From contig NZ_CP018082.1 of NCBI RefSeq assembly GCF_001886715.1, positions 62,001-126,000 of the forward strand: a DNA stretch of 64,000 bases, written 5' to 3'. Source of the DNA: Nocardia mangyaensis (GTDB lineage: Bacteria > Actinomycetota > Actinomycetes > Mycobacteriales > Mycobacteriaceae). The notes beneath the pieces were generated by a model that worked only from the letters and a program-made list of their open reading frames with translations, was not told the DNA's origin and did not search any database. Below, piece after piece: positions 4,222 through 57,432 of the stretch. A program made the translations under genes and the position numbers. The stretch's first letter is position 1. Each line of letters opens with the position of its first letter.

Positions 4222-7200
4222 TCAGCGGGGTTTCACCAGCGGGAACGGCAGGGTCTCGCGGATGCTGCGGCCGGTGATCAGCATGACCACGCGGTCGACG
4301 CCCATCCCGAGGCCGCCGGTGGGGGGCATGGCGTGTTCGAGCGCCTGGAGGAAGTCCTCGTCGAGTTCCATCGCCTCGGGGTCGCCGCCCGCGGCCAGCA
4401 TCGACTGTTCGGTGAGGCGGCGGCGCTGTTCCACCGGGTCGGTGAGTTCGCTGTAGGCGGTGCCCAGTTCGACGCCCCAGGCGACCAGGTCCCAGCGTTC
4501 GGTGACGCCGGGGATGCTGCGGTGCGAGCGGGTCAGGGGGGAGACCGAGGTGGGGAAGTCCAGGTAGAAGGTGGGTTCGGTGGTTTGGGATTCCACCAGG
4601 TGCTCGTACATCTCCAGCACCACCTGTCCGGCGTCCCAGCCGTGCTGATACGCCACCCCGGCGCCGTCGCACAGTTCGCGCAACCGGGTGAGGTCGGTGC
4701 GCGCGGTGATCTCGGTGCCGATGGCCTCCGAGACCGCGCCGTGCACCGTCTTGACCCGCCACTCACCGGAGATGTCGACGGTGTCGAATCCGCCGGAATC
4801 ATTGGGCCGCAGGGCCACTTCGGCACCGTTGGCCGCCATCGCCGCGTCCTGGATCAGCTGGCGGCACAGGTGCATCATCCGCAGGTAATCGCTGTGCGCC
4901 TCGTAGGCTTCCAGGATCGTGAACTCGGGATTGTGGCTGAAGTCCACGCCCTCGTTGCGGAAGGTCCGCCCGATCTCGAACACTCTCTCCATCCCGCCGA
5001 CGCACAGCCGCTTGAGATACAGTTCGGGCGCGATGCGCAGATACAGGTCCAGGTCGTAGGCGTTGATGTGGGTGCGGAAGGGGGTCGCGTTGGCGCCGCC
5101 GTGTACCTGCTGCAGGATCGGCGTCTCGACCTCGAGGAAGCCCCAGGTGAACAGTGAGTCGCGCAGCGAGTGCAGCACCGCGCTGCGCTTGGCCATCACC
5201 TCGCGGGTCTCGGGGTTGATCACCATGTCGACATAGCGCTGCCGCACCTTGGCCTCGGAATCGGCCAGCCCGCGCCACTTGTCGGGCAGCGGATGCAGGC
5301 ACTTGCCGTTCATCCGCCAGTCCTGCGCGAGCAGCGAGAGCTCCCCGCGCCTGCTGGTGCCGATCTGGCCGCTCACCTCGATCAGGTCACCCAGGTCGAA
5401 GAACTCGGTGAACTCCGCGCCGCGATCGGCGCCGACCCGCTCGCGGTCGATCACCAACTGGATCTCCTCGGTCCAGTCGCGCACCACCGCGAAGATCACT
5501 CCGCCGTGGTCACGGATGCGCAGCAGCCTGCCCGCCACCCGCACCGTGGTGCCCTTGGGCGCGCGCCGGGCCGCGGCGATGGTGTGCGTGGGCGGGTAGG
5601 AGATCGGGTAGGCGTCGACGCCGGCGGCGGTGAGCCGGTGCAGCTTGTCCATCCGCACCCGCACCTGCTCCGGTCTGCGCGGACCCTGCTCGGTGTCCGC
5701 GCCTTCGGGCGCGTCGGGCGGGCTGCCGTCGGCGTGCAGTCCGGTGATCGTCGCGGGGACAGCCGGATTCGTGCCGGTGTGCACCGCGGCGTCGGGCGCC
5801 CTGCCCAGCCGGGGCAGGAACCCCTCGGCCAGCCCGCTCGCCGTCGCCACCCGGGGCAGCTGCCTGCGCTCCTCATACAGAAAGAACCGCGGCACCCAGC
5901 GCGGGTGGTACTTCACATTGGACCGGTACAGCGCCTCGAGCTGCCACCAGCGCGAGAAGAACAGCAGCACCCCGCGCCAGGCCCGCAGCACCGGGCCCGC
6001 GCCGATCCGGCCACCTTCCTCGAACACCGAGCGGAACACCGCGAAGTTCAGCGAGACCTTGGTGACGCCGTACTGGTCGGAGTTCAGCGCGAGCTGCGAG
6101 ATCATCAGTTCCATCACGCCGTTGGGGCTGTTCGGGTCGCGGCGCATCAACTCCAGCGAGGCGCCGGTGCGGCCCCACGGGACCAGCGAGAGCATGGCGT
6201 GCACCCGGTCGTCGTGATCGACGGCCTCCACCAGCAGGCAGTCACCGTCGAGCGGATCGCCGAGGCGGCCCAGCGCCATCGAGAAGCCACGTTCGGTCTC
6301 GGTGTCGCGCCAGGCGTCGGCGCGGGCGATGATCTCGGCGACCTCCGGGGCCGGGATCTCACGATGCCTGCGCACCCGGACGCCGATGCCGTGCTTGCGC
6401 AGCCGGTTGGCGGCCTGGCGCACCTGCTTCATCTCCGGCCCGGCCAGCGAGAACGCGCGGGTGTCGAGGATCGCCTCGTCGCCCAGGCGCAGCGCCGTGA
6501 GTCCGGCCCGCCGGTAGGCGGTCGCGCCGATCTCGCTCGCGCCCATCACCGCGGGTGCCCAGCCGAACCGGTCCGCCAGCTCCAACCAGGCCGTGATGGC
6601 CTGCGGCCAGCTCTGTTTCGGCCCGATCGGATCGCCGCTGGCCAGGCAGACACCCAGCTCGACACGATAGGTGATCGCCGCTGTGCCATTCGGCGCGAAC
6701 ACCACCGCCTTGTCCCTGCGGGTCGCGAAGTAGCCGAGCGAATCCTCGACATCACTGCTCGCCAGCAGACTTCGGATCGCCGACTCGTCCAGCCCGGTCA
6801 TCGCGTTGTCGGCGCGCTGGGAGCGCAGCAGCACGATCACCGCCGCCAGCAGCGCGATCGCGCCGAACACGCCGAGCGCGAAGTTCACCCACGCGCGCGG
6901 ATGGCCGTCGAAGTGCTCGTTGTTCACCAGCACCGCCGCGGTGACCCGGTACACCGCCCACAGCGGTCGCTGCGCACCGGCGGGCAGCGAGCCGGGGAAC
7001 AGCTCGACCAGGCCCCAGCCGAGCAGACACCCCGCCGCCAACCCGGCGACCAGCACCCCGAGCGCCTTCCAGAGCGCACCGGGCCTGACCCGGGTGTAGA
7101 ACTCCTTGCGCGCCGCGAGCAGCACGCCGAGCACCACCAGGTGGACGAAGAAGGCCACCAGCGCGGCCCTGTCGTCGTCGGCGACGAAGGACACGATGTT

Positions 7201-14561: not shown

Positions 14562-15713
14562 ATGGTGCAGCTCCGGTACCAGTACCGTCTCTACCCGACA
14601 CCAAGCCAGCAACTCAGCCTGGCTCAGGCGTTCGGGTGTGCGCGGGTGGTGTTCAACGACTGTCTGCGCGTGCGGCAAACCACCTACGCTGCGGGAGAAC
14701 GTCTCTCCGATACCGAGATACAAAAGCGGGTTGTCACCGTCGCGAAAAGGACACCGGAGCGCGCTTGGCTAGCGGACGTGGCCTCGGTTGTCCTGGTTCA
14801 GGCATGTCAAGATGCGCGGCGCGCGTACCGCAACTGGTTCGACTCGATGTCGGGCAAACGCAGGGGCCCGAGGTCGGGAGCGCCACGGTTCCGGTCACGC
14901 AAAGACTCCAGGCAGTCGATACGGTTCACCCGCAACGGATTCCGCCTCCGCGCGAACCGGACCCTGGACGTCGCCAAGGTCGGGGAACTGGATGTCCGGT
15001 GGTCGCGGGAGCTGCCGACAGAGCCGACGTCGGTGACGATTATCAAAGATTCGGCGGGGCGGTACTTCGCGAGCTTCGTAGTCGAAGTGGACGCGACCTC
15101 ACTCCCCGAGGCCGACTCCGAGGTCGGTATCGACCTGGGCTTGACCACCTTCGCGGTGTTGTCGAACGGCAAAACCATCTCGTCCCCGAAATTTCTCCGC
15201 CGGGCCGAACACAGACTCCGCAAAGCGCAACAGTGTTTGTCGCGCAAGGAGGAAGGAAGCAGGAACCGGGCGAAGCAACGCGTGCGGGTCGCGCGGGCGC
15301 ACGCTTCGGTGGCCGATGCCCGGCGAGACTGGGCGCACAAGCAGTCGACGACGATCATCCGCGAGAATCAAGCGGTATTCGTCGAGGACTTGTGCGTTCG
15401 GGGTCTGGCGCGGACGCGGTTGGCGAAGTCGGTGCACGATGCGGGGTGGGGGAAGTTCATCCGCATGCTCGAGCAGAAGGCTGCGCGATACGGGCGCGTC
15501 TTCGGCAGAGTCGACCGGTTCCATCCCTCGAGCCAACTCTGCTCGAGCTGCGGAGTTCGCGACGGCCCGAAGCCACTCTCGATTCGGGAGTGGACATGCC
15601 AGGCGTGCGGCGCGGTCCACGACCGCGACCTGAACGCCGCTGTCAATATCCACGCCGCAGGCCGTGCGGAGTGGTTAAACGCCTGCGGAGGGGCTGTCAG
15701 TCTCTCCGCCTAG
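14562..15713 (+). CDS. tnpB: TnpB RNA-guided endonuclease
   Basis: A 383-residue protein of normal TnpB length. The N-terminal wedge region starts with YRLYPTPSQQ. The RuvC triad is intact: Asp191 in VGIDLGLT, Glu275 in VFVEDLCV and Asp356 in HDRDLNAAVNI, close to positions 191, 278 and 361 of ISDra2 TnpB. The zinc ribbon CSSCG...CQACG is present. TnpB cleaves DNA next to a transposon-specific motif, guided by an omega RNA made from the 3' end of its own gene and the element end. All visible catalytic features are kept, so it is probably active. The gene is complete and in the same direction as htpG. Confidence 0.92.
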   Translation: MVQLRYQYRLYPTPSQQLSLAQAFGCARVVFNDCLRVRQTTYAAGERLSDTEIQKRVVTVAKRTPERAWLADVASVVLVQACQDARRAYRNWFDSMSGKRRGPRSGAPRFRSRKDSRQSIRFTRNGFRLRANRTLDVAKVGELDVRWSRELPTEPTSVTIIKDSAGRYFASFVVEVDATSLPEADSEVGIDLGLTTFAVLSNGKTISSPKFLRRAEHRLRKAQQCLSRKEEGSRNRAKQRVRVARAHASVADARRDWAHKQSTTIIRENQAVFVEDLCVRGLARTRLAKSVHDAGWGKFIRMLEQKAARYGRVFGRVDRFHPSSQLCSSCGVRDGPKPLSIREWTCQACGAVHDRDLNAAVNIHAAGRAEWLNACGGAVSLSA

Positions 15714-38691: not shown

Positions 38692-39522
38692 TCAATTGTC
38701 GGCGGGCACGATGGGGAAGTCCGCGCGCACCGGCAGCGACTCGATGAGATCCGCCACCGCGGTGCGCAGGCGCGCGGGGCTGCCGGTGGCCATCGACGAC
38801 CACTTGACGCCGTCGTCGGCGACGCTGGCCGTGATGATGAATCTGCCACCACGCGTGTTGAACACGGCGATGTGGTTGTCCTGGATCTCGCGGGTGCCGT
38901 CACCGTAGGCGATGCCGACGATCTCGGCGTAGGAGTGGATCTCCACCAGCGCCGAGGCGAGCACCTGGGCATCGGTCGCCGGATTGCCGACCTTGCTCAG
39001 GCGCTGCGCGGTGGCGGCCGCGTCACCGGTGTCGTTGAACAGCGGCGCGAGATCGTCGGTCGGCGCGTTCATTCCGTACAGCTCGAGGGCCTCGCTGGGC
39101 CCGAGCGCCTGCAGCACCGCGCCGGGCAGATCCAGCCCGGCATCGTCGATGACGTAGGACGTCGGCCCGCGCAGGGCGACGACCGCACGGTCCTCGCCCT
39201 GCGCCAGACAGAATCGGTTGACCTGGCCCGCGACCACCCACCGCATCTCGATGACCCACTGCGGTCGGTAGAGCACCCGAAGGCGCTCGGCGAGCTCGGG
39301 CGCCACCGCGTCGCGCGAGAGCAGTTCGCGTTCGACGAGCGCGGCCTCGGCGACCTTCATCGCGGCGTCGTGCTCGGTGACGTTGTCGTACCGGCCGATG
39401 GCGTCGAGCACCACGGGCATCTCGTCGAACTGCAGGTGTTCCAGGAGGAACTGCATGTCGTCGAGCGAGAGCACCACGGCCTCGAGCAGCGAACCTCCGC
39501 TGCCCGCGCCCAGAACCGTCAC
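38692..39522 (-). CDS. EspG-family ESX secretion chaperone
   Basis: A 276-residue protein with the EspG pattern: SLDDMQFLLEHLQFDEMPVVL at the N-terminus and VSNTRGGRFIIT-like strands later. EspG proteins bind the PPE partner of a PE/PPE pair in the cytosol and deliver it to a type VII secretion system. The GTG start overlaps the PPE stop (GTGA). No ESX membrane genes are in the window. Confidence in family is good because all three partner genes lie side by side. Confidence 0.85.
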   Translation of the reverse strand: MTVLGAGSGGSLLEAVVLSLDDMQFLLEHLQFDEMPVVLDAIGRYDNVTEHDAAMKVAEAALVERELLSRDAVAPELAERLRVLYRPQWVIEMRWVVAGQVNRFCLAQGEDRAVVALRGPTSYVIDDAGLDLPGAVLQALGPSEALELYGMNAPTDDLAPLFNDTGDAAATAQRLSKVGNPATDAQVLASALVEIHSYAEIVGIAYGDGTREIQDNHIAVFNTRGGRFIITASVADDGVKWSSMATGSPARLRTAVADLIESLPVRADFPIVPADN

Positions 39523-40640
39523 TTGGCCGTTCCGGCGAGATCGGCGCCGATCACGCCCTCGGCGGCGTAGCGGCCATCGGTGAAGGCTTCGTTCGAGCTG
39601 CCGTAGTCGACGGCGTCGTGCTCGTCGTCGTCCTCGCCCTTGGTCGCGGCGCGGTTACCGAGCAGCGGGTTGGCGCCCTGAGCGGCCGGACGTGCGGCGC
39701 TGTCCACGCGGGCGGCCGACGAATCGGCGACCGGCGCGGCCGCGGGTGCGCTGGACGCCGGGGCGCCCCACCCGTCGGGCAGCTTGAGTCCGCCACCGGC
39801 GAGCGACGCGCCCGCGGAGGTGGTCGCCAGACCACCGGCGGCGGCACCGACCGCGCCGACACCCATCGCGGCCGGAGCCGCCGCGGCGGCGGGCATGGTG
39901 GCCCCGCTGGTAGCGGCCGTCAGCGCGGTGGCGCCGATGTTGCCGACCGTGCCGACACCACTGGAGACCACACCGCCCGCGACATTCGCGGCCTGGGTGG
40001 CCGCGCTGACGACGCCGGGGTTGGTGACGAAGGCCTGGGCCGCCGCGACCGCGGTCTGGATCGGGTCGCCACCGAAATCGCCCTGGGCGGTACCGGCGCC
40101 GTGCGCGATGGCAGGCGGCTGCTGGAACTCGCCCGGCGTGGTCACGGTGGCGGTGGTGGCGGCCTCGTAGGTCTCCATCACCAGCGCGGCGCGAATGTCC
40201 ATGGCGGTCTTGGCGACCTCGGCGGCGGCGAACGCGCCGGAGGCGGCACCGGCCGGGTTGGCCGAGGCGACGACCGCGCCGTTGGTCGCGATGATCTCGG
40301 GCAGGCTCGGCATCGCGATCGAGGCGACGGTGTAGGCGGTCGCGTTGGCCGTGCACTTGGCGCCCATGGCCGCGGCCAGCACGCCCTGCTGACTCGTCCA
40401 GCCGAGGAACGGCGCGAGCTTGGCGAGCACGGCGACGCCGTTGACGCCCTGCAGGCCGACGCCGACCTCGGCGATGACGCGCGTGATGGTGAAGGTGGCG
40501 TCACCCCAGGCCGCGGCCAGCGTGCCCCACGAGGTGGCGGCGGCCGAGATCGGAATCGCGTGAGCGCCCGCGTTGAGGGTGGTGGAGTTGACTTCTGCCA
40601 TGCGAGGCAGCCAGAACACCCCGGTGATCCCTGCGGTCAT
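39519..40640 (-). CDS. PPE-domain protein
   Basis: A 373-residue protein. The N-terminal 170 residues are a helical PPE-like domain (FWLPRMAEVNSTTLNAGAHAI, SWGTLAAAW with the WxG-type turn), followed by an Ala/Gly/Pro/Val-rich low-complexity C-terminus and an acidic, Asp/Glu-rich end (KGEDDDEHDAVDYG). It should pair with the PE protein encoded upstream and be secreted by an ESX system with the EspG chaperone. Confidence 0.85.
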   Translation of the reverse strand: MTAGITGVFWLPRMAEVNSTTLNAGAHAIPISAAATSWGTLAAAWGDATFTITRVIAEVGVGLQGVNGVAVLAKLAPFLGWTSQQGVLAAAMGAKCTANATAYTVASIAMPSLPEIIATNGAVVASANPAGAASGAFAAAEVAKTAMDIRAALVMETYEAATTATVTTPGEFQQPPAIAHGAGTAQGDFGGDPIQTAVAAAQAFVTNPGVVSAATQAANVAGGVVSSGVGTVGNIGATALTAATSGATMPAAAAAPAAMGVGAVGAAAGGLATTSAGASLAGGGLKLPDGWGAPASSAPAAAPVADSSAARVDSAARPAAQGANPLLGNRAATKGEDDDEHDAVDYGSSNEAFTDGRYAAEGVIGADLAGTAK

Positions 40641-40686
40641 GCTTGTTTCTCCCCTGAATGGATTCTCGTCGACGGATCGGGTGCGC

Positions 40687-40998
40687 TTACACCTGGATGG
40701 CGTTGATCGTCGCCCCGCGGACCACGTCCTGCCCGATGTGGGTGCTCAGCTGCGAGCGCAGCGTGGCCGCCGCGTGATGCAGTTCGAGGATGCCCTGCGC
40801 GATCGCCGCGTCGTGCGTGCCCGCCGCCTTGTTGAAGTGCGAGGCCGCCAGCAGCGACACCTCTTCGGCGCCCGAGGGCAGCACGTGAGTGGTCGGCCCG
40901 GCGAGGGCGGCGACGGCGGCGAGGCGGTCGGCGAGCAGATCCAGCTCGGCGGCTGCGGCGAGGACGATTTCAGGCGTGACGGAAATGTGTCCAACCAT
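40687..40998 (-). CDS. PE-domain protein
   Basis: A 103-residue helical hairpin protein (ISVTPEIVLAAAAELDLLADRL, EEVSLLAASHFNKAAG) of PE type, 46 bases before the PPE gene. The secretion signal YxxxD/E at the end of the PE domain reads HIGQD, with His in the place of Tyr. The short C-terminus after it suggests a pure PE domain without extra module. Confidence 0.8.
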   Translation of the reverse strand: MVGHISVTPEIVLAAAAELDLLADRLAAVAALAGPTTHVLPSGAEEVSLLAASHFNKAAGTHDAAIAQGILELHHAAATLRSQLSTHIGQDVVRGATINAIQV

Positions 40999-50329: not shown

Positions 50330-50530
50330 GCACCACCCGCCCGCCAACCAGGGTCACGCTGCGCGTGAGGTAGTGGGCGACGCTGCCCCGGCACCGAACC
50401 GCCAGCCCGGGGCCGGCGCGATCCGTCGACGGCGCGCAACAGCGCCCGAATGCTAGGTTGCTGGCGAGAATACGGCCGAGTAGTCGGTCGGCCCGTGCGG
50501 AGCGCGGGCACGAAGTGGGGGTGTCACACA

Positions 50531-52402
50531 GTGCTCGAGCAGCTATCGCCGGGCGAGTCGACGATGATCGGTCGCTATCGGATTCGCGGTGTACTCGGTG
50601 CGGGTGGAATGGGGCGAGTGCTGCTGGCCACCGGTCCCGACGGCAGGTACGTCGCGGTCAAGCAGATTCATCCACACCTGCTCGACGACAGCGATTTCCG
50701 GGCTCGCTTCGCGCGTGAGGTCAGTATCTCCACCCGGGTTTCCGGCGCGTTCACCGCCGCCGTGGTCGACTTCGACACCGGTGCGAACCCCTGGCTGGCT
50801 TCGGTGTTCATCGCAGGTGTCCCGTTGGACCGGGCTGTGCGCGAATACGGGCCACTGCCGGTCCCCGCCTTGCGCACCTTGGCCTCCGGTCTCGCCTCGG
50901 CATTGCACGCCATCCACGGCGCCGGACTCGTGCATCGAGATCTCAAGCCCGCCAATGTGATCCTGGCCGCGGATGGACCGCGGGTGATCGACTTCGGCAT
51001 CGCGCAGGCCACCGAGGGCGGTACGCCGCTCACCGAGACCGGTGCGGTGGTGGGCTCGCCCGCCTACATGTCGCCGGAGCAGGCGATGAGCGAACCGGTG
51101 ACAGCGGCCGCGGACATCTTCTCGCTCGGTTCGCTGCTGGTCATGGCGGCCACCGGACAGAGTCCGTTCGCCGCTTCCTCAGCGCCCTATGCCCTGTTCA
51201 ATATCGTGCACAGCGAACCACAGCTCGACGCGGTGCCGCTGGAGCTGCGCGAACTGATCGGCGCGTGCCTGCGCAAAGACCCTGCCGCGCGGCCGACCGC
51301 GGTACAGATCCTCGACTACCTCGGCGTACTGCCGGTCCAGGCGTTGCCGTGGTCGGCACCGATCCACGCCGAGATCGCCCAGCAGTCGCGATATCTGGTC
51401 TCGCTGACAGCGGATCCAGAAGCGACACAGGTTCTTTCGTCGAGCTCGGTCGTCCCGATCGCACCGTCCCCCGCTCCCGCCCCGAAGCGTCGTCGACGCG
51501 CGCTCGCGCTCGTGGCGGTGACGGCGGTGGTGATCGTGGGGACGGTCGGCGCCATCCTCGTGCGCGGTGAGAAACCCACGGTGCGGGCGAGCCCCGCGGC
51601 GGCCCTGCCGAGCCTGGCGCAACTGCGCGCGATCGATGCCTGCGCCTGGCTGCCCGCCGCACTCGGTGACACCCTGCCCGCGGCCCTCGCCGCCACCGGC
51701 CAGACCAGGGTCGAGCAGTGGCGCTGGCAGCAGACCTCGGGCTGGGGCTGTGAGGGCACCTCGGGCGCGGCCCGAGTCACCATCGAAATCGGCACCGCCA
51801 TCGATGGATTCACCCCGACGGGCACCACCCGTCACGGCTTCGCCGAGCTGCGCCGCGGCACCGAATGCCTGCTCGGCATCGACAACGGCGCAGGCGATCG
51901 ACGCTGGGGCATCTCGGTCAGCACGGCCGAACGCACCACGTGCGCACTGGCCGAGTACGCCCTCGACCGGCTCACCGCCACCATCGCCGACGCACCCAGC
52001 CTGCCCGGGACGCCATCGACGCTGGCGACCCTGGACCCGTGCGGATTGGCATCGGAGTCCGAGCTCACCGCCGTAGGCGCGGCGGGCCCCGGCAGCGGCT
52101 TCGCACACACCTGCGAGTGGCACGGTGACTCCACGGTGCGGCTCACCCTGGGGGTTCCCCGGCGCGAGGACCTCCCGACGTTCCTGCGCAAGACCATCGA
52201 CGTCGGTGACGGCGTGCTGCTCGAAGAACCGACCGGCATGTTGGTCGATTGCCCCCGCTTCTACCGATTCCGCGAGGTCGGCGAGACTTCCGTGGAGGCT
52301 GTGACGGTTCAGGTCACCCGCTCGACCGGACAGCCGGACGCGACGTTGTGCACTGATACCGAAGCGATTCTGAAGGCGATTGTCGGCCGGCTACCGCAGT
52401 AG
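50531..52402 (+). CDS. Receptor-type Ser/Thr protein kinase, first of the operon
   Basis: A 623-residue kinase from GTG 50531. The kinase domain (about 10-275) is complete: GAGGMGRV, Lys44 in VAVKQIHP, Glu63, HRDLKPANV with Asp137, Asp154 of DFG, and SPEQA. A Thr-rich activation loop (TPLTETGAVVG) is available for autophosphorylation. One membrane helix (about 325-344) leads to two extracytoplasmic repeats, each starting (I/L)D(A/P)C and holding a second Cys (IDACAWL/WGCEG, LDPCGL/TCEWHG), resembling DUF3558-type domains. It opens the kinase-lipoprotein-kinase-pseudokinase operon. Confidence 0.9.
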   Translation: MLEQLSPGESTMIGRYRIRGVLGAGGMGRVLLATGPDGRYVAVKQIHPHLLDDSDFRARFAREVSISTRVSGAFTAAVVDFDTGANPWLASVFIAGVPLDRAVREYGPLPVPALRTLASGLASALHAIHGAGLVHRDLKPANVILAADGPRVIDFGIAQATEGGTPLTETGAVVGSPAYMSPEQAMSEPVTAAADIFSLGSLLVMAATGQSPFAASSAPYALFNIVHSEPQLDAVPLELRELIGACLRKDPAARPTAVQILDYLGVLPVQALPWSAPIHAEIAQQSRYLVSLTADPEATQVLSSSSVVPIAPSPAPAPKRRRRALALVAVTAVVIVGTVGAILVRGEKPTVRASPAAALPSLAQLRAIDACAWLPAALGDTLPAALAATGQTRVEQWRWQQTSGWGCEGTSGAARVTIEIGTAIDGFTPTGTTRHGFAELRRGTECLLGIDNGAGDRRWGISVSTAERTTCALAEYALDRLTATIADAPSLPGTPSTLATLDPCGLASESELTAVGAAGPGSGFAHTCEWHGDSTVRLTLGVPRREDLPTFLRKTIDVGDGVLLEEPTGMLVDCPRFYRFREVGETSVEAVTVQVTRSTGQPDATLCTDTEAILKAIVGRLPQ

Positions 52403-52486
52403 CGGCCATGGATCGCCAGATGATAGTTTCACCGCAGATAGGGAGGACCCGGCCGCCCGTGGCGCCCTGGTCGGAGGGGAATCTTC

Positions 52487-53653
52487 GTGCGGCACAGGTC
52501 GCGTCGGCTCGCGACGCTCACGGTTCTGGTCCTCGGTGTAGTCACCGCGTGTGCAGATCAACCCGGTCTCGATTACGGCGGCTACTCCGCCCAGCCGATC
52601 GCCGCCGACTACGACATCGAGCCCAGCTACCACCGCGGTGTCCTGACCGAGTCGCTGCGGATCGGTGAGCGGTTGGCGATCGCCGAGCAGATCGACCCCG
52701 ACCTGTCGCGTACTCGTGGTGGCGGGGTGATCGTCGACCACCGCGGCGTCGACGACATGCTGTCGAGCTCGCAGCGCGAGGCGCTGGCACCCTTCGACGT
52801 GCTGGCGGGCTTCGGCGCGATCGCGGGCAACGACCAGGTGCACGACGAGGCCAGGCTCAAATTCCTGTCGATCGCGATCCTGGCCCTGCCCAGCGAGGAG
52901 ATCGCCGGTCAGGCGGCGGCCGCCATGGCGAGAGCCGATTTCGAGGCCAATATCGACAACGCGCCGCTACCGGTGCCGGAATTCCCTGCGGCTCTGAACC
53001 ATTGGCGGCCCGGTGTCCCGACCGTGGGTAGTTGGCTGGTGTGGCAGAACATGGTGATCCGGGTGTACGCCAAGGTGATCGAGCCGAGTCCCGAGGTGCT
53101 GAGCGACCTGCTGACCCGGACTTATCGCGCGCAACTCGCCGAACTGGCGGGTTTCACGCCGATGCCGCCCGAACAGTTCACCACGGTCAGGATGGACCCC
53201 GACGGCCTGCTCACCCGGGTGGTCTCGACCGGTGAAACCACACCGCAGCACGAGGAATTCGCGGTGTATGGTCCGCGTGCGTTCGCCCTGTTGGTGGACC
53301 GGCCGTCGGTGCGGTTGGACCTGTTGGAGCGCCATCGAATCTCGGCGGTCGCGGTGTCGCACAACAAGTTTCTGTATCGCGCGGGTTCGCCGGACGCGGC
53401 CCGCGCCTATGCCGACGAGCTCGTGGCCGTCCGTGACGCGGACTACACCGCGATGCCAGGGGTGCCCGGGCTGCCCGCGGTGCGGTGCCAGCGAGCGCTG
53501 CGGCCCAACCCGTCCGAGTTCGAGGCCGTCCGGTTCTCCTGCGTGGTGACCCACGGCGAGTTCGTGGTTCGCCTGCTGAGCAATCAGGACACCGATGTCC
53601 GGCAGCTGGCGGCGGCGCAATACGCGTTGCTGGCCGACGGTGCGGGGGCGTAG
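52487..53653 (+). CDS. DUF7373-like lipoprotein between the kinases
   Basis: A 388-residue lipoprotein: signal with LGVVTAC lipobox, Cys about residue 22. The body (RGGGVIVDHRGVDDMLSS, NHWRPGVPTVGSWLVWQNMVIRVYAKV, FAVYGPRAFALLVDRPSVRLDLLERH) matches large Nocardia lipoprotein families known as DUF7373. GTG 52487. It lies outside the membrane, 84 bases after kinase 1 and 3 bases before kinase 2, so it is a candidate ligand or co-receptor. No enzymatic motif was seen. Confidence 0.78.
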   Translation: MRHRSRRLATLTVLVLGVVTACADQPGLDYGGYSAQPIAADYDIEPSYHRGVLTESLRIGERLAIAEQIDPDLSRTRGGGVIVDHRGVDDMLSSSQREALAPFDVLAGFGAIAGNDQVHDEARLKFLSIAILALPSEEIAGQAAAAMARADFEANIDNAPLPVPEFPAALNHWRPGVPTVGSWLVWQNMVIRVYAKVIEPSPEVLSDLLTRTYRAQLAELAGFTPMPPEQFTTVRMDPDGLLTRVVSTGETTPQHEEFAVYGPRAFALLVDRPSVRLDLLERHRISAVAVSHNKFLYRAGSPDAARAYADELVAVRDADYTAMPGVPGLPAVRCQRALRPNPSEFEAVRFSCVVTHGEFVVRLLSNQDTDVRQLAAAQYALLADGAGA

Positions 53654-53656
53654 TCG

Positions 53657-55528
53657 ATGAAACCTCGTGGACCGCACGATCCCGAAACCCTGGGCCGCTA
53701 CCGCATACTGGCCGCGATCGGCCAGGGCGGGATGGGCCAGGTGCTGCTCGGCCAGGGCCACGACGGTCGGCTGGTCGCGGTGAAGCAGATTCATCCTCAG
53801 TTCACCGGCAGTCCCGAGTTCCGTGCTCGTTTCCGCCGGGAGGTGCTGGCCTCACAGCAGGTCACCGGGGCCTACACGGCGGGGGTAGTCGATCACGACG
53901 CTGATGCCGAGAGCCCGTGGCTGGCCTCGGAATACATCGCCGGACCGTCGCTACAGGAGGCGGTTGGCGAGTTCGGCAAGCTGAACGCGAGCGGGCTCAG
54001 GCTGCTCGCCGCCGGTCTGGCGATGGCGCTGCTCGAAATCCACCGCACCGGACTGATCCATCGCGATCTCAAGCCGAGCAATGTGCTGCTCACCAACGAA
54101 GGCCCGCGGGTGATCGATTTCGGTATCGCCAGGGCGCTCGAGGACGATGTCACCCTCACCGCGACCGGTGCGATTCTCGGTTCACCGGCGTACATGTCAC
54201 CGGAGCAGGCCGAATGCCGCCCGCTCACCACGGCGTCCGATGTGTTCGCGGTGGGTGCGATCCTGGCGATGGCGGCAACCGGCGCCAGCCCGTTCGCGGC
54301 GGCGTCGACCCCGCAGGTGCTCTACAACGTGCTCTACACCACCCCCGATACCAGTGCGGTGCCCGAGGATCTGCGTGCCCTGGTCGACGCGTGCCTGGTC
54401 AAGGACCCAGCACAACGTCCGACCCCGGAGCAACTGCTCGACGCGGCGCGGGACCTGCGCGCCGAGCCGGTCTGGCCGGTCCGTATTCGCCGGCGCATCG
54501 CCGATCACCAGGCCGAGGCGAGCCGGTGGGCGGCGGGCATCGGTGCGGTGGCCGAGCCGCCACCGAGTCGGCGCGCGTTTCACCGCGCCCCACGGCGCAC
54601 CAGCGTGGTCTTCGTCGCCGCGGCGGTCTCGGCGCTCGTGCTGGCCGCCATCGCTTTCACGGGGATCGGGCGTGACGGGCACGCGCAGGCGATGGCGGAT
54701 CCGCCGCTGGCACTGACCGTCGCCGAGGCTCGCCGTCTCGACGTCTGCGAGCTGTTGAAGCCCGATGTCCTGCGCGATTTCGGCAAGCACACTGCCGAAC
54801 TCACCCGCGTCGGTGTCGACGGGTGCAGCACGATCTACGGCTGGGACGAGGACAAGACGTACTTCTCCTTCAATGTCGCCGTCCCGCAGGCCGAGGTCAT
54901 CGGCGGAAAGACGAAGTTCGGCAGCACGATCGGCTGGATGCCGGTGGTAGGGCAGCACAAGGAGGCGGCCGCCTGCGACCGCACGGTCCTGACCCAGAGT
55001 GGTCTGCCCCTGGCCATCACGATGCAGGCCCAGGTGGAGCCGTCGAAGCGCGATGGGTGCCCGGCCGCTGAGCGCGCGCTCGGCGCGGTGGTGCATCGGC
55101 TGTCGGTGAATCCGCCGCTGATCGACTACGAACCCGACTCGGTCCTGCTGCTCGATCCTTGCGCCCTGCTCGACCGCGCGGCGACCATGCCCGTTGTCGG
55201 TGACCCCGCGCTGCGACGGGTACAGGGCCCGCACGGCTGCATGATTGTGGGCAGCGACGGGTTGGTCATCCTCGATTTCGACGACCGGCTGCGCCCCGAT
55301 GTCGGCAGTCGCACCAGGGACGAGACGATGACCGTCGCGGACCGGACCATCCACATCGATCTGCAGTCGCCGCGGCACTGCGTGCTCATCGCCATGCAGC
55401 GGCCGAGCCGCGACGACCAGGCCGAAATCGTCAAACTGGGCTACTACCCGGATGATCCGTCGCCGGACGCCTGCGCCACGGCCGCCGCGCTGTTCGCCCC
55501 CATCCTCGCGGAGTTGCCCACCTCATGA
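53657..55528 (+). CDS. Receptor-type Ser/Thr protein kinase, second of the operon
   Basis: A 623-residue kinase starting three bases after the lipoprotein stop. The domain is complete: GQGGMGQV, Lys43, Glu62, HRDLKPSNV with Asp137, DFG at 154-156, SPEQA. One membrane helix (about 317-336) precedes two extracytoplasmic repeats (LDVCELL...GCSTIYG and LDPCALL...HGCMIVG). Close paralogue of kinase 1 in plan. Its stop overlaps the pseudokinase start as ATGA. Confidence 0.9.
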   Translation: MKPRGPHDPETLGRYRILAAIGQGGMGQVLLGQGHDGRLVAVKQIHPQFTGSPEFRARFRREVLASQQVTGAYTAGVVDHDADAESPWLASEYIAGPSLQEAVGEFGKLNASGLRLLAAGLAMALLEIHRTGLIHRDLKPSNVLLTNEGPRVIDFGIARALEDDVTLTATGAILGSPAYMSPEQAECRPLTTASDVFAVGAILAMAATGASPFAAASTPQVLYNVLYTTPDTSAVPEDLRALVDACLVKDPAQRPTPEQLLDAARDLRAEPVWPVRIRRRIADHQAEASRWAAGIGAVAEPPPSRRAFHRAPRRTSVVFVAAAVSALVLAAIAFTGIGRDGHAQAMADPPLALTVAEARRLDVCELLKPDVLRDFGKHTAELTRVGVDGCSTIYGWDEDKTYFSFNVAVPQAEVIGGKTKFGSTIGWMPVVGQHKEAAACDRTVLTQSGLPLAITMQAQVEPSKRDGCPAAERALGAVVHRLSVNPPLIDYEPDSVLLLDPCALLDRAATMPVVGDPALRRVQGPHGCMIVGSDGLVILDFDDRLRPDVGSRTRDETMTVADRTIHIDLQSPRHCVLIAMQRPSRDDQAEIVKLGYYPDDPSPDACATAAALFAPILAELPTS

Positions 55529-57432
55529 CGATCCAACCGCTGGGCCCCGGTGATCCCGAACGTATCGGCCGCTATCGGCTGCTCGGTGCGCTGGAGCCGA
55601 CCGTGGGATTCCGGCCGATCCTCGCCGCCGCCCCGGACGATTCCCTGGTGGTCGTACATCAGGCTCAGCCGGAGATGCTCGATGAACCGGACTTTCGAAT
55701 CCGGCTGCGGCACAGTGCTATCGCTGGCATGCGGGTATCGGGCGCGTCGAACACCACCGTGCTCGATGTCGATGCCGACGAGGAAAGGCCCTGGCTGGCA
55801 TCGGCGTTCGTGCCCGGCATCCGACTCGATCGAGCGATCCAGACCTGCGGACCACTGCCCGTGCCCGCTGTCCGGGCGCTCGCCGCCGCCCTGGCGACGG
55901 CCCTGCGAGCGGTGCACGCCGCGGGTCTGGTGCACCAGCGAGTGCGCGCCGATTCCGTCCTGTTGACAAGGGACAGTGGATGTCTCGGTGAGATCGGCAT
56001 CACCCCGGCGGCCGGCCCCGCGCCGACCGGAACCGCGACAGTTCTCGGCACCCCGGAGTTCCTTTCGCCGGAACAGGCACTCGGCCTGCAACTCACCCCG
56101 GCGGCCGACGTGTTCGCCCTCGGCTCGGTACTGGCCTTCGCCGCGGGCGGCTTCGCCCCGTTCACCGCCCCGTCGGTGCCCTACATCCTGTTCAACATCG
56201 CCCAGCGCGATCCCGACCTGAGCCGCGTGCCAGAGCCGCTGCGCGAGTTGATCGCCGCATGCCTGCGCAAGGAGCCGGGCGCGCGCCCGACCCCGGCACA
56301 GATCTTGGACTACCTCGGCGGCCCGCCGAGCGGCCCGGCGCCCTGGCCCGCCGACCTCGTCGCCGACATCGACAGCCGCCGACAGCACGTGTCAGCACTG
56401 CTGGCCGCACTGCCACCGGTGGTCGCAGCGGACCCGGTGCCCGCGCGCCCACTTCCCGAAGTTGCCGCCGCGGCGATGGCGAGAGTTCGCGCGTGGACGA
56501 TGGACCACTGGCAGCGAAGCGGCCCGCGGGCCCGGCGCGGACTGGGCGCGGGTCTCGCCGCGCTGCTGCTGCTCGTCACCACGGGCGTCGTCCTGCTCGC
56601 CCGTGCCTCCGGCGAACCCACCCCCGTGACCGGTCTCGCCCTCGCCGAGCTGCGCCGCATCGACGCCTGTCCCTGGCTCGACACGGTCATGGGCGACACG
56701 GTCCCGGTCGTACCGACCCCATTGCCCAGGGACGCCTGGGAGCTGACGCCGACCCCCAGCTGGGGTTGCCGGGCCGTGGCGGGCAAGAACACCATCGAGC
56801 TGACACTCGGTAAGGAGATGGAGTACCTGACCGCACACCAGAGCATCGTCGACGACATCCCGATCATTCATGGCACTCCGCACGGCTGTGTCCGGGTGAT
56901 CGCGAGCCCGGGCGGGGAACACGAGGCCGGCCTGGTCCTCGACTACACCCAGTACGGCGACGAGACGAACTGCGGCACCGCCGATCACCTGATCGCCGAG
57001 TTCGCCCGAACGCTGACGAGCGCACCGCGCGCGGCCGACCGAGGCGACTCCTTGGCCGCCCTCGATCCCTGCGCACTTCTCGATCGCGACAATGTGGCGC
57101 AGCGAATCGGCGCCGTGCCGAAGGCACCGACCATCGCAGATGCTCACACCTGCGAGTGGACCGGCGAGGTGGATCTCACTCTCGATCTGCTCCGTACCAG
57201 CACGCTCACCAGCGGCGACGAAGTGATCACCACCACCGTTGACGGCTTCCGCGTCTTCCTCGACCAGGGCAGATCGAATGCCATCTGCACCAGAGCCGCC
57301 CTCGCACCTGGCTCCGACGAGGAGACGATCGAGATCCAGATATCGGGCATCCCCGATGACCGACGCGACGAGTACTGCGCCGTCGCGGTCGCGGTGCTGC
57401 GCGATGTGGTGACAAAGCTGCCCGCGAGCTGA
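55525..57432 (+). CDS. Membrane pseudokinase with extracytoplasmic Cys repeats
   Basis: A 635-residue protein with the same plan as its two neighbours but without catalytic residues. The Gly-rich loop reads ALEPTVGFRP, the VAVK Lys is His45, the alpha-C Glu is lost, HRDLKPxN reads HQRVRADS (catalytic Asp is Arg139), and DFG reads EIG (156-158). The C-lobe (LGTPEFLSPEQA, ADVFALGSVLAF) persists, so the fold should be kept. A helix at about 340-360 and two repeats (IDACPWL...WGCRA, LDPCALL...TCEWTG) complete it. A scaffold or allosteric partner for the active kinases is inferred. Confidence 0.9.
   Translation: MTIQPLGPGDPERIGRYRLLGALEPTVGFRPILAAAPDDSLVVVHQAQPEMLDEPDFRIRLRHSAIAGMRVSGASNTTVLDVDADEERPWLASAFVPGIRLDRAIQTCGPLPVPAVRALAAALATALRAVHAAGLVHQRVRADSVLLTRDSGCLGEIGITPAAGPAPTGTATVLGTPEFLSPEQALGLQLTPAADVFALGSVLAFAAGGFAPFTAPSVPYILFNIAQRDPDLSRVPEPLRELIAACLRKEPGARPTPAQILDYLGGPPSGPAPWPADLVADIDSRRQHVSALLAALPPVVAADPVPARPLPEVAAAAMARVRAWTMDHWQRSGPRARRGLGAGLAALLLLVTTGVVLLARASGEPTPVTGLALAELRRIDACPWLDTVMGDTVPVVPTPLPRDAWELTPTPSWGCRAVAGKNTIELTLGKEMEYLTAHQSIVDDIPIIHGTPHGCVRVIASPGGEHEAGLVLDYTQYGDETNCGTADHLIAEFARTLTSAPRAADRGDSLAALDPCALLDRDNVAQRIGAVPKAPTIADAHTCEWTGEVDLTLDLLRTSTLTSGDEVITTTVDGFRVFLDQGRSNAICTRAALAPGSDEETIEIQISGIPDDRRDEYCAVAVAVLRDVVTKLPAS

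Follow-up and report, generated by a model that had tools for sequence, protein, structure and literature searches.

We analysed a 64,000-nucleotide window of the Nocardia mangyaensis genome (NZ_CP018082.1, 62,001-126,000, forward strand; positions in the feature lines below count from the first nucleotide of this window) and found in it a four-gene operon encoding two receptor Ser/Thr kinases (A and B), a DUF7373 lipoprotein (L), and a receptor pseudokinase (P), in the order A-L-B-P. We read this operon, with a probability of roughly one half, as an envelope-sensing receptor system in which P is non-catalytic and whose output would probably be the type VII secretion system (T7SS) or a state of the envelope on which the T7SS depends. 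The reading starts from gene order and its conservation, the loss of catalytic residues under constraint on the kinase fold, the ectodomains shared by the receptors, and the T7SS neighbourhood of related modules; the last of these was absent from an earlier reading of the same DNA made from its letters alone (the sequence-only reading). The features of the operon are:

50531..52402, + strand: A, receptor Ser/Thr kinase; GTG start, all catalytic motifs, one membrane helix, eight-cysteine ectodomain of two modules
51566..52399, + strand: A ectodomain, two four-cysteine modules (cysteine count, profile comparison)
52487..53653, + strand: L, two-domain DUF7373 lipoprotein (Pfam); residues 55-223 with a PknH sensor-like fold
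53657..55528, + strand: B, receptor Ser/Thr kinase; all catalytic motifs, same topology as A
54665..55525, + strand: B ectodomain, two four-cysteine modules (cysteine count, profile comparison)
55525..57432, + strand: P, receptor pseudokinase; same topology as A and B
55648..55662, + strand: VAIK site of P, VVVHQ, Lys replaced by His (counted from the translation)
55933..55956, + strand: catalytic loop of P, HQRVRADS, Asp and Asn lost (counted from the translation)
55990..55998, + strand: DFG site of P, EIG (counted from the translation)
56599..57429, + strand: P ectodomain, two four-cysteine modules, the second near DUF3558 (cysteine count, profile comparison)

An in-frame ATG at 50450 is a possible alternative start for A. 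The genes are separated by 84 (A-L), 3 (L-B), and -4 (B-P) bases, and a promoter and terminator scan gave nothing that exceeded shuffled sequences. A, B, and P match the Pfam Pkinase family (E = 1.6e-36, 2.6e-39, and 7.1e-14, respectively) and have one strong hydrophobic segment apiece. The sequence-only reading had placed four genes here with these gaps and had described two complete Ser/Thr kinases, a DUF7373 lipoprotein, and a third kinase-fold protein without catalytic residues; open reading frames, Pfam matches, and catalytic motifs bear this out, and the third protein proves to be a conserved pseudokinase (13 of 13 loci, below).

Gene order and distribution

Searching 118 Nocardia genomes with L, we took the upper group of matches (at least 234 bits; next match 152 bits) as orthologues, which gives 29 loci in 23 genomes, six of them with two copies. 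N. lijiangensis, searched by name, adds a 30th locus (L063); its other three loci, whose contigs match in length contigs already included, were taken as duplicates. In a family-wide search of 301 genomes, matches of at least 266 bits occur within Nocardia only, and the best match outside the genus scores 130 bits.

All 30 loci were inspected, and B lies directly after L in every one. Three layouts occur: A-L-B-P, that of the window, in 13 loci; L-B-A', with an A-type kinase (A') in the third slot, in 13; and L-B*, in which B itself lacks the catalytic Asp, in four, one of them (L100) a 4.7-kb contig. In other species, the third slot is thus taken by a kinase that is active by its motifs, or B is itself without the catalytic Asp. 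The recurrence of the arrangement across loci argues that it is not due to chance. The sequence-only reading had asked whether the four genes co-occur and had counted orthologues scattered singly, without clustering, against a common system: L and B are together throughout, and all four genes in 13 loci. The exact four-gene set it described does recur, yet as one of three layouts around the L + B core.

Eight A-L-B-P loci are in the serS neighbourhood, and a ninth, on a short contig, shows the downstream oxidoreductase gene only. Genome G016 is a close relative, with 97% identity in the neighbouring GGDEF protein; there the operon is missing, and only 114 bases separate the flanking transporter and oxidoreductase genes, which marks the module as an accessory insertion. 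The module is accessory within Nocardia, and L and B form its constant core. As a side observation, an open reading frame elsewhere in the window (14562-15713), inspected by eye without a family search, resembles a TnpB-type protein of the kind associated with transposons.

Loss of catalysis under constraint

A and B retain the G-loop, the Lys of the VAIK motif, the Glu of helix alpha-C, HRDLKPxN, and DFG, and with their one membrane helix are thus Hanks-type receptor Ser/Thr kinases. In the P of the window, His stands at the VAIK Lys, Ser at the alpha-C Glu, and HQRVRADS and EIG at HRDLKPxN and DFG. The VAIK Lys, alpha-C Glu, HRD Asp, and catalytic-loop Asn are all gone from P in 13 out of 13 A-L-B-P loci, and the DFG Asp in 12 (L063 retains DTG). 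Judged by these motifs, P would not be an active Hanks-type kinase. It does have the protein kinase fold, and in a VIA-align comparison of the P model kinases alone are listed.

A-type kinases retain all motifs in 26 out of 26 cases. The HRD Asp of B is retained in 26 out of 30; the four L-B* loci read HRN (three) or HRR (one), and in two further loci (L065 and L093) B keeps the Asp and has lost the Lys of HRDLK. When the sampling is widened to 53 homologues, 36 are without both the VAIK Lys and the HRD Asp, two are without the Lys only, and 15 have both.

The reading frame of P is intact in all 13 loci. Constraint was measured as the ratio of nonsynonymous to synonymous substitution rates (dN/dS; medians, in each case, of the 36 pairwise comparisons among nine A-L-B-P loci). 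The kinase folds of A, B, and P have values of 0.133, 0.137, and 0.170; the ectodomains, 0.41, 0.50, and 0.46; and L, 0.31. The dead kinase fold of P is nearly as constrained as those of its active paralogues, which points to a cytoplasmic role other than catalysis.

When the 69 kinase domains are placed in a tree without an outgroup, A and P together are split from B (100/100); within it, P and B* each form one clade (100/100 each). Since each is a single clade, catalysis has been lost at least two times. P is not placed securely as sister to the third-slot A': the test rejects neither a grouping of P with A' (P = 0.39) nor one with the first-slot A (P = 0.36). In PknB, R10 and D76 serve the back-to-back dimer, and structures of the D76A and L33D mutants have reportedly been determined. 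The residues matching R10 and D76 are retained in 33 and 36, respectively, of the 36 pseudokinases.

Ectodomains, lipoprotein, and type VII secretion neighbourhood

The 30 loci encode 69 receptor ectodomains, every one of them with eight cysteines, and P keeps all eight in each of its 13 loci. Profile comparison joins the modules of the receptors (B1-B2, 95% probability; A2-B1, 93%; B1-P2, 95%); the comparisons A1-A2 (0.3%) and P1-P2 (33%) fall below significance taken alone. On these profiles, the ectodomain consists of two homologous modules across the receptors. The single helix and the two repeats that the sequence-only reading had assigned to each kinase-fold protein stand, but its repeat motif, (I/L)D(A/P)C, does not: the first repeat of the window's B reads LDVC, and not every relative retains the motif. 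P scores 31.9 bits against DUF3558 (PF12079; cut-off 34.1) and 35 bits, just over, in the own-genome search; nine out of 14 ectodomains match the family at E ≤ 0.1, and 37 out of 53 P/A homologues at E ≤ 0.01. Sequence searches of the PDB gave a best E of 0.47 with the P ectodomain, and a single match (E = 2.3) with a 14-member ectodomain profile.

L carries both DUF7373 domains (N domain, PF24088, E = 1.8e-49; C domain, PF24092, E = 6e-44), each over its cut-off, behind a hydrophobic signal and a lipobox whose Cys22 is invariant among 41 aligned sequences. Its residues 55-223 have the fold of the PknH sensor domain (4esq); a PDB sequence search with the L (DUF7373) profile has no match at E ≤ 1. 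Our search of open-licence PMC papers found no relevant paper on DUF7373 or DUF3558, and the present analysis supplies DUF7373 with a fold and a context.

The related modules often lie close to T7SS genes. Out of the 17 L-B-A' and L-B* loci, 12 have a gene of EccC, PE, PPE, or Esx-like type within the inspected stretch, the weakest of the T7SS-linked loci (L096) by a single 45-bit Esx-like match; for two more (L068 and L069), an eccC gene lies at 12 to 13 kb, in the adjoining stretch, for a total of 14 out of 17. At L094 the one match, about 10 kb distant, is to the PE family; the stretch at L065 contains no match; and the contig of L100 is too short. There are two recurrent positions: one between a MinD-like ATPase gene adjoining rpoA and a GntR gene adjoining eccC, and the other downstream of PE, PPE, and Esx genes. 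The first is empty in the window's own genome (L127). In the examples checked, family matches confirm mycosin, EccC, PE, PPE, EspG, and WXG100. At L102, a short kinase-like open reading frame (5417-5788; 123 amino acids, 40 bits) directly follows eccC and is perhaps a remnant.

A sample of 22 DUF7373 paralogue loci in Nocardia (20 best hits per genome and two other loci of the own genome) has, within the stretch inspected, a kinase in 16 and a T7SS gene (EccC, Rv3446c family, or WXG100) in 14; the T7SS-linked loci are mostly of ESX-4 type, with FHA proteins. L016, L082, and other ESX-4-type loci carry arrays of one to six DUF7373 lipoproteins together with a Ser/Thr protein kinase (STPK), WXG100 genes, and an FHA-ABC transporter that combines two FHA domains with ABC and ABC-2 parts. 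In the own genome, three out of three DUF7373 loci adjoin a kinase, and three out of nine DUF3558 loci have an EspG gene no more than 5 kb away (177-181 kb, 552-557 kb, and 6921-6925 kb), two of these three also near PPE genes.

Two kinase loci outside the module were noted in passing. Three consecutive STPK genes lie ∼14 kb from an EspG/PPE pair (L018, 5456-10216; own genome, 5553-5557 kb), and a 1385-amino-acid open frame with two weak kinase matches (own genome, 6255059-6256573, - strand) is possibly a tandem kinase/pseudokinase. The window itself contains T7SS-related genes about 9.5 kb upstream of the operon, on the opposite strand:

38692..40998, - strand: Nocardia core T7SS trio of PE (40687-40998), PPE (39519-40640), and EspG (38692-39522), in the neighbourhood and outside the operon

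Proposed mechanism and alternatives

From these observations we infer a physical complex with a direction of signalling, a ligand, and an output. L, anchored outside the cytoplasmic membrane, would bind an envelope ligand or partner and pass its bound state to the eight-cysteine ectodomains of A, B, and P. Association of the ectodomains would bring the cytoplasmic domains together, and A and B would phosphorylate in trans. P would join without catalysis: as one half of a kinase-fold dimer, in an allosteric or scaffolding role, it would tune A and B or dock a target. The output would most probably act on the type VII secretion apparatus or on the envelope state that it needs.

Several results weigh against this reading. 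We detected no profile similarity between L and the ectodomains, so that the putative contact between lipoprotein and receptors is suggested by gene order. The stretches inspected at the 13 A-L-B-P loci, the window included, contain no eccC or Esx gene: 14 out of 17 L-B-A' and L-B* loci can be called encoded in a T7SS locus, and 0 out of 13 A-L-B-P loci. The PE-PPE-EspG trio accompanies the operon at eight out of eight serS-type loci but is also present in six out of six genomes without the operon, and as such a core feature is weak evidence; the PE/PPE matches of the window were accordingly rejected as operon-specific. The DUF7373 paralogue loci are best hits per genome and not a random sample, and outside the genus five out of 12 DUF7373 loci have a kinase nearby and one out of 12 has T7SS genes. 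In the own genome, the proximity of DUF3558 to EspG is gone at 2 kb (one out of nine, P = 0.05), and kinase loci overall show a mild proximity to T7SS genes (four out of 21, P = 0.03), both P-values being post hoc and assuming uniform placement.

The module resembles parts of several known systems and as a whole belongs to none of them. Among the closest, from Mycobacterium tuberculosis, are PknH, four lipoproteins with the same sensor domain as PknH (LppH, LpqQ, LprH, and LpqA), and TiME (Rv3705c). The difference is that the PknH-like fold here sits in the lipoprotein and not in the kinase, and the kinases carry tandem eight-cysteine modules near DUF3558. EssB/YukC of T7SSb is a transmembrane pseudokinase and a non-catalytic scaffold for type VII secretion, as summarized in a 2025 review (PMC12599244); it belongs to a Bacillota system. 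The P-bearing loci are not inside T7SS loci, there is no EssB/YukC match to P among its Pfam matches at E ≤ 1, and EssB is not listed in the structural comparison of P. In the kinase-containing variants T7SSc, d, and e (TscD, TsdD, TseD), genes for membrane STPKs and for FHA proteins accompany those of the T7SS, but in other phyla and with other components, and the portion of that paper drawn on here describes no pairing of a lipoprotein with a pseudokinase (PMC11217815). In Corynebacterium glutamicum, an evolved ChrS is described as a dead receptor that heterodimerizes with its active paralogue HrrS and alters the output (PMC9491836); according to the same source these are histidine kinases, and laboratory-evolved.

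The sequence-only reading knew of no described system with this exact set, and our search of open-licence PMC papers likewise found no description of the operon, of DUF7373, or of the T7SS link. A pseudokinase with the motifs of P is, taken alone, not new in print: Table 1 of the 2025 review lists Nocardia asteroides U5EIF8 in pseudokinase family Act1 with VVVR / HQRLRADS / EIG (PMC12599244). These motifs are identical to those of four P homologues here, by which U5EIF8 is very probably a P orthologue; the portion of the review drawn on here mentions no operon, lipoprotein, or T7SS.

The alternative that survives best, though we think it rather unlikely, is that P serves as a dock controlled by phosphorylation: A or B would phosphorylate its cytoplasmic part and an FHA protein would then bind at that site, with no tuning of the kinases. 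The model for this is the MviN pseudokinase (ActPs3), an actinobacterial membrane pseudokinase that works with active STPKs, forms a back-to-back dimer, and, as the review reports, is phosphorylated by PknB and then recruits FhaA (PMC12599244). The FHA proteins encoded in the ESX-4-type loci of paralogous DUF7373-kinase pairs are in keeping with it. But no FHA gene was seen among the listed neighbours of the window operon (not all of those proteins were searched by domain), and the architecture of MviN, a lipid II flippase fusion, differs from that of P, a single-pass receptor beside two active receptor paralogues.

It is quite unlikely that the genes are co-transcribed yet functionally independent and that proximity to the T7SS reflects shared insertion hot spots. 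The accessory distribution of the module (23 out of 118 genomes), at several sites and with empty sites in relatives, is as this would predict; L and B are nevertheless together at every location, T7SS genes recur at two different positions, and DUF7373 paralogues pair with other kinases as well. About as unlikely is a role of P and B* as ligand sinks or dominant-negative receptors that compete with A and B for ligand or partner and damp the signal: P does retain its full ectodomain with all eight cysteines, and in the L-B* layout no active kinase remains in the operon, but the kinase fold of P (dN/dS 0.17) is far more constrained than its ectodomain (0.46), and the cytoplasmic fold itself therefore does something. 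Decay of P into a pseudogene, to which its lost catalytic motifs might point, was rejected on that same kinase-fold dN/dS of 0.17, with the reading frame intact in 13 out of 13 loci.

Returning to the envelope-sensing reading, we would tentatively carry it further: a DUF7373 lipoprotein with eight-cysteine receptor kinases and pseudokinases might make up an envelope complex that controls actinobacterial (ESX-type) secretion, by reporting on it or by licensing it. Dead receptors would then have evolved repeatedly as structural members, in functional parallel to EssB in T7SSb and with a separate origin. This is doubtful, if still arguable.

To our knowledge, few actinobacterial receptor STPKs have a known ligand or output, and bacterial receptor pseudokinases have hardly been studied experimentally. 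In this module, one operon slot is filled by active receptors in some species and by dead receptors from the same lineage in others; catalysis was lost twice independently, the lipoprotein partner is constant, and a T7SS neighbourhood recurs. Together these make two questions testable: the role of a bacterial receptor pseudokinase, and whether ESX-type secretion is under STPK control.

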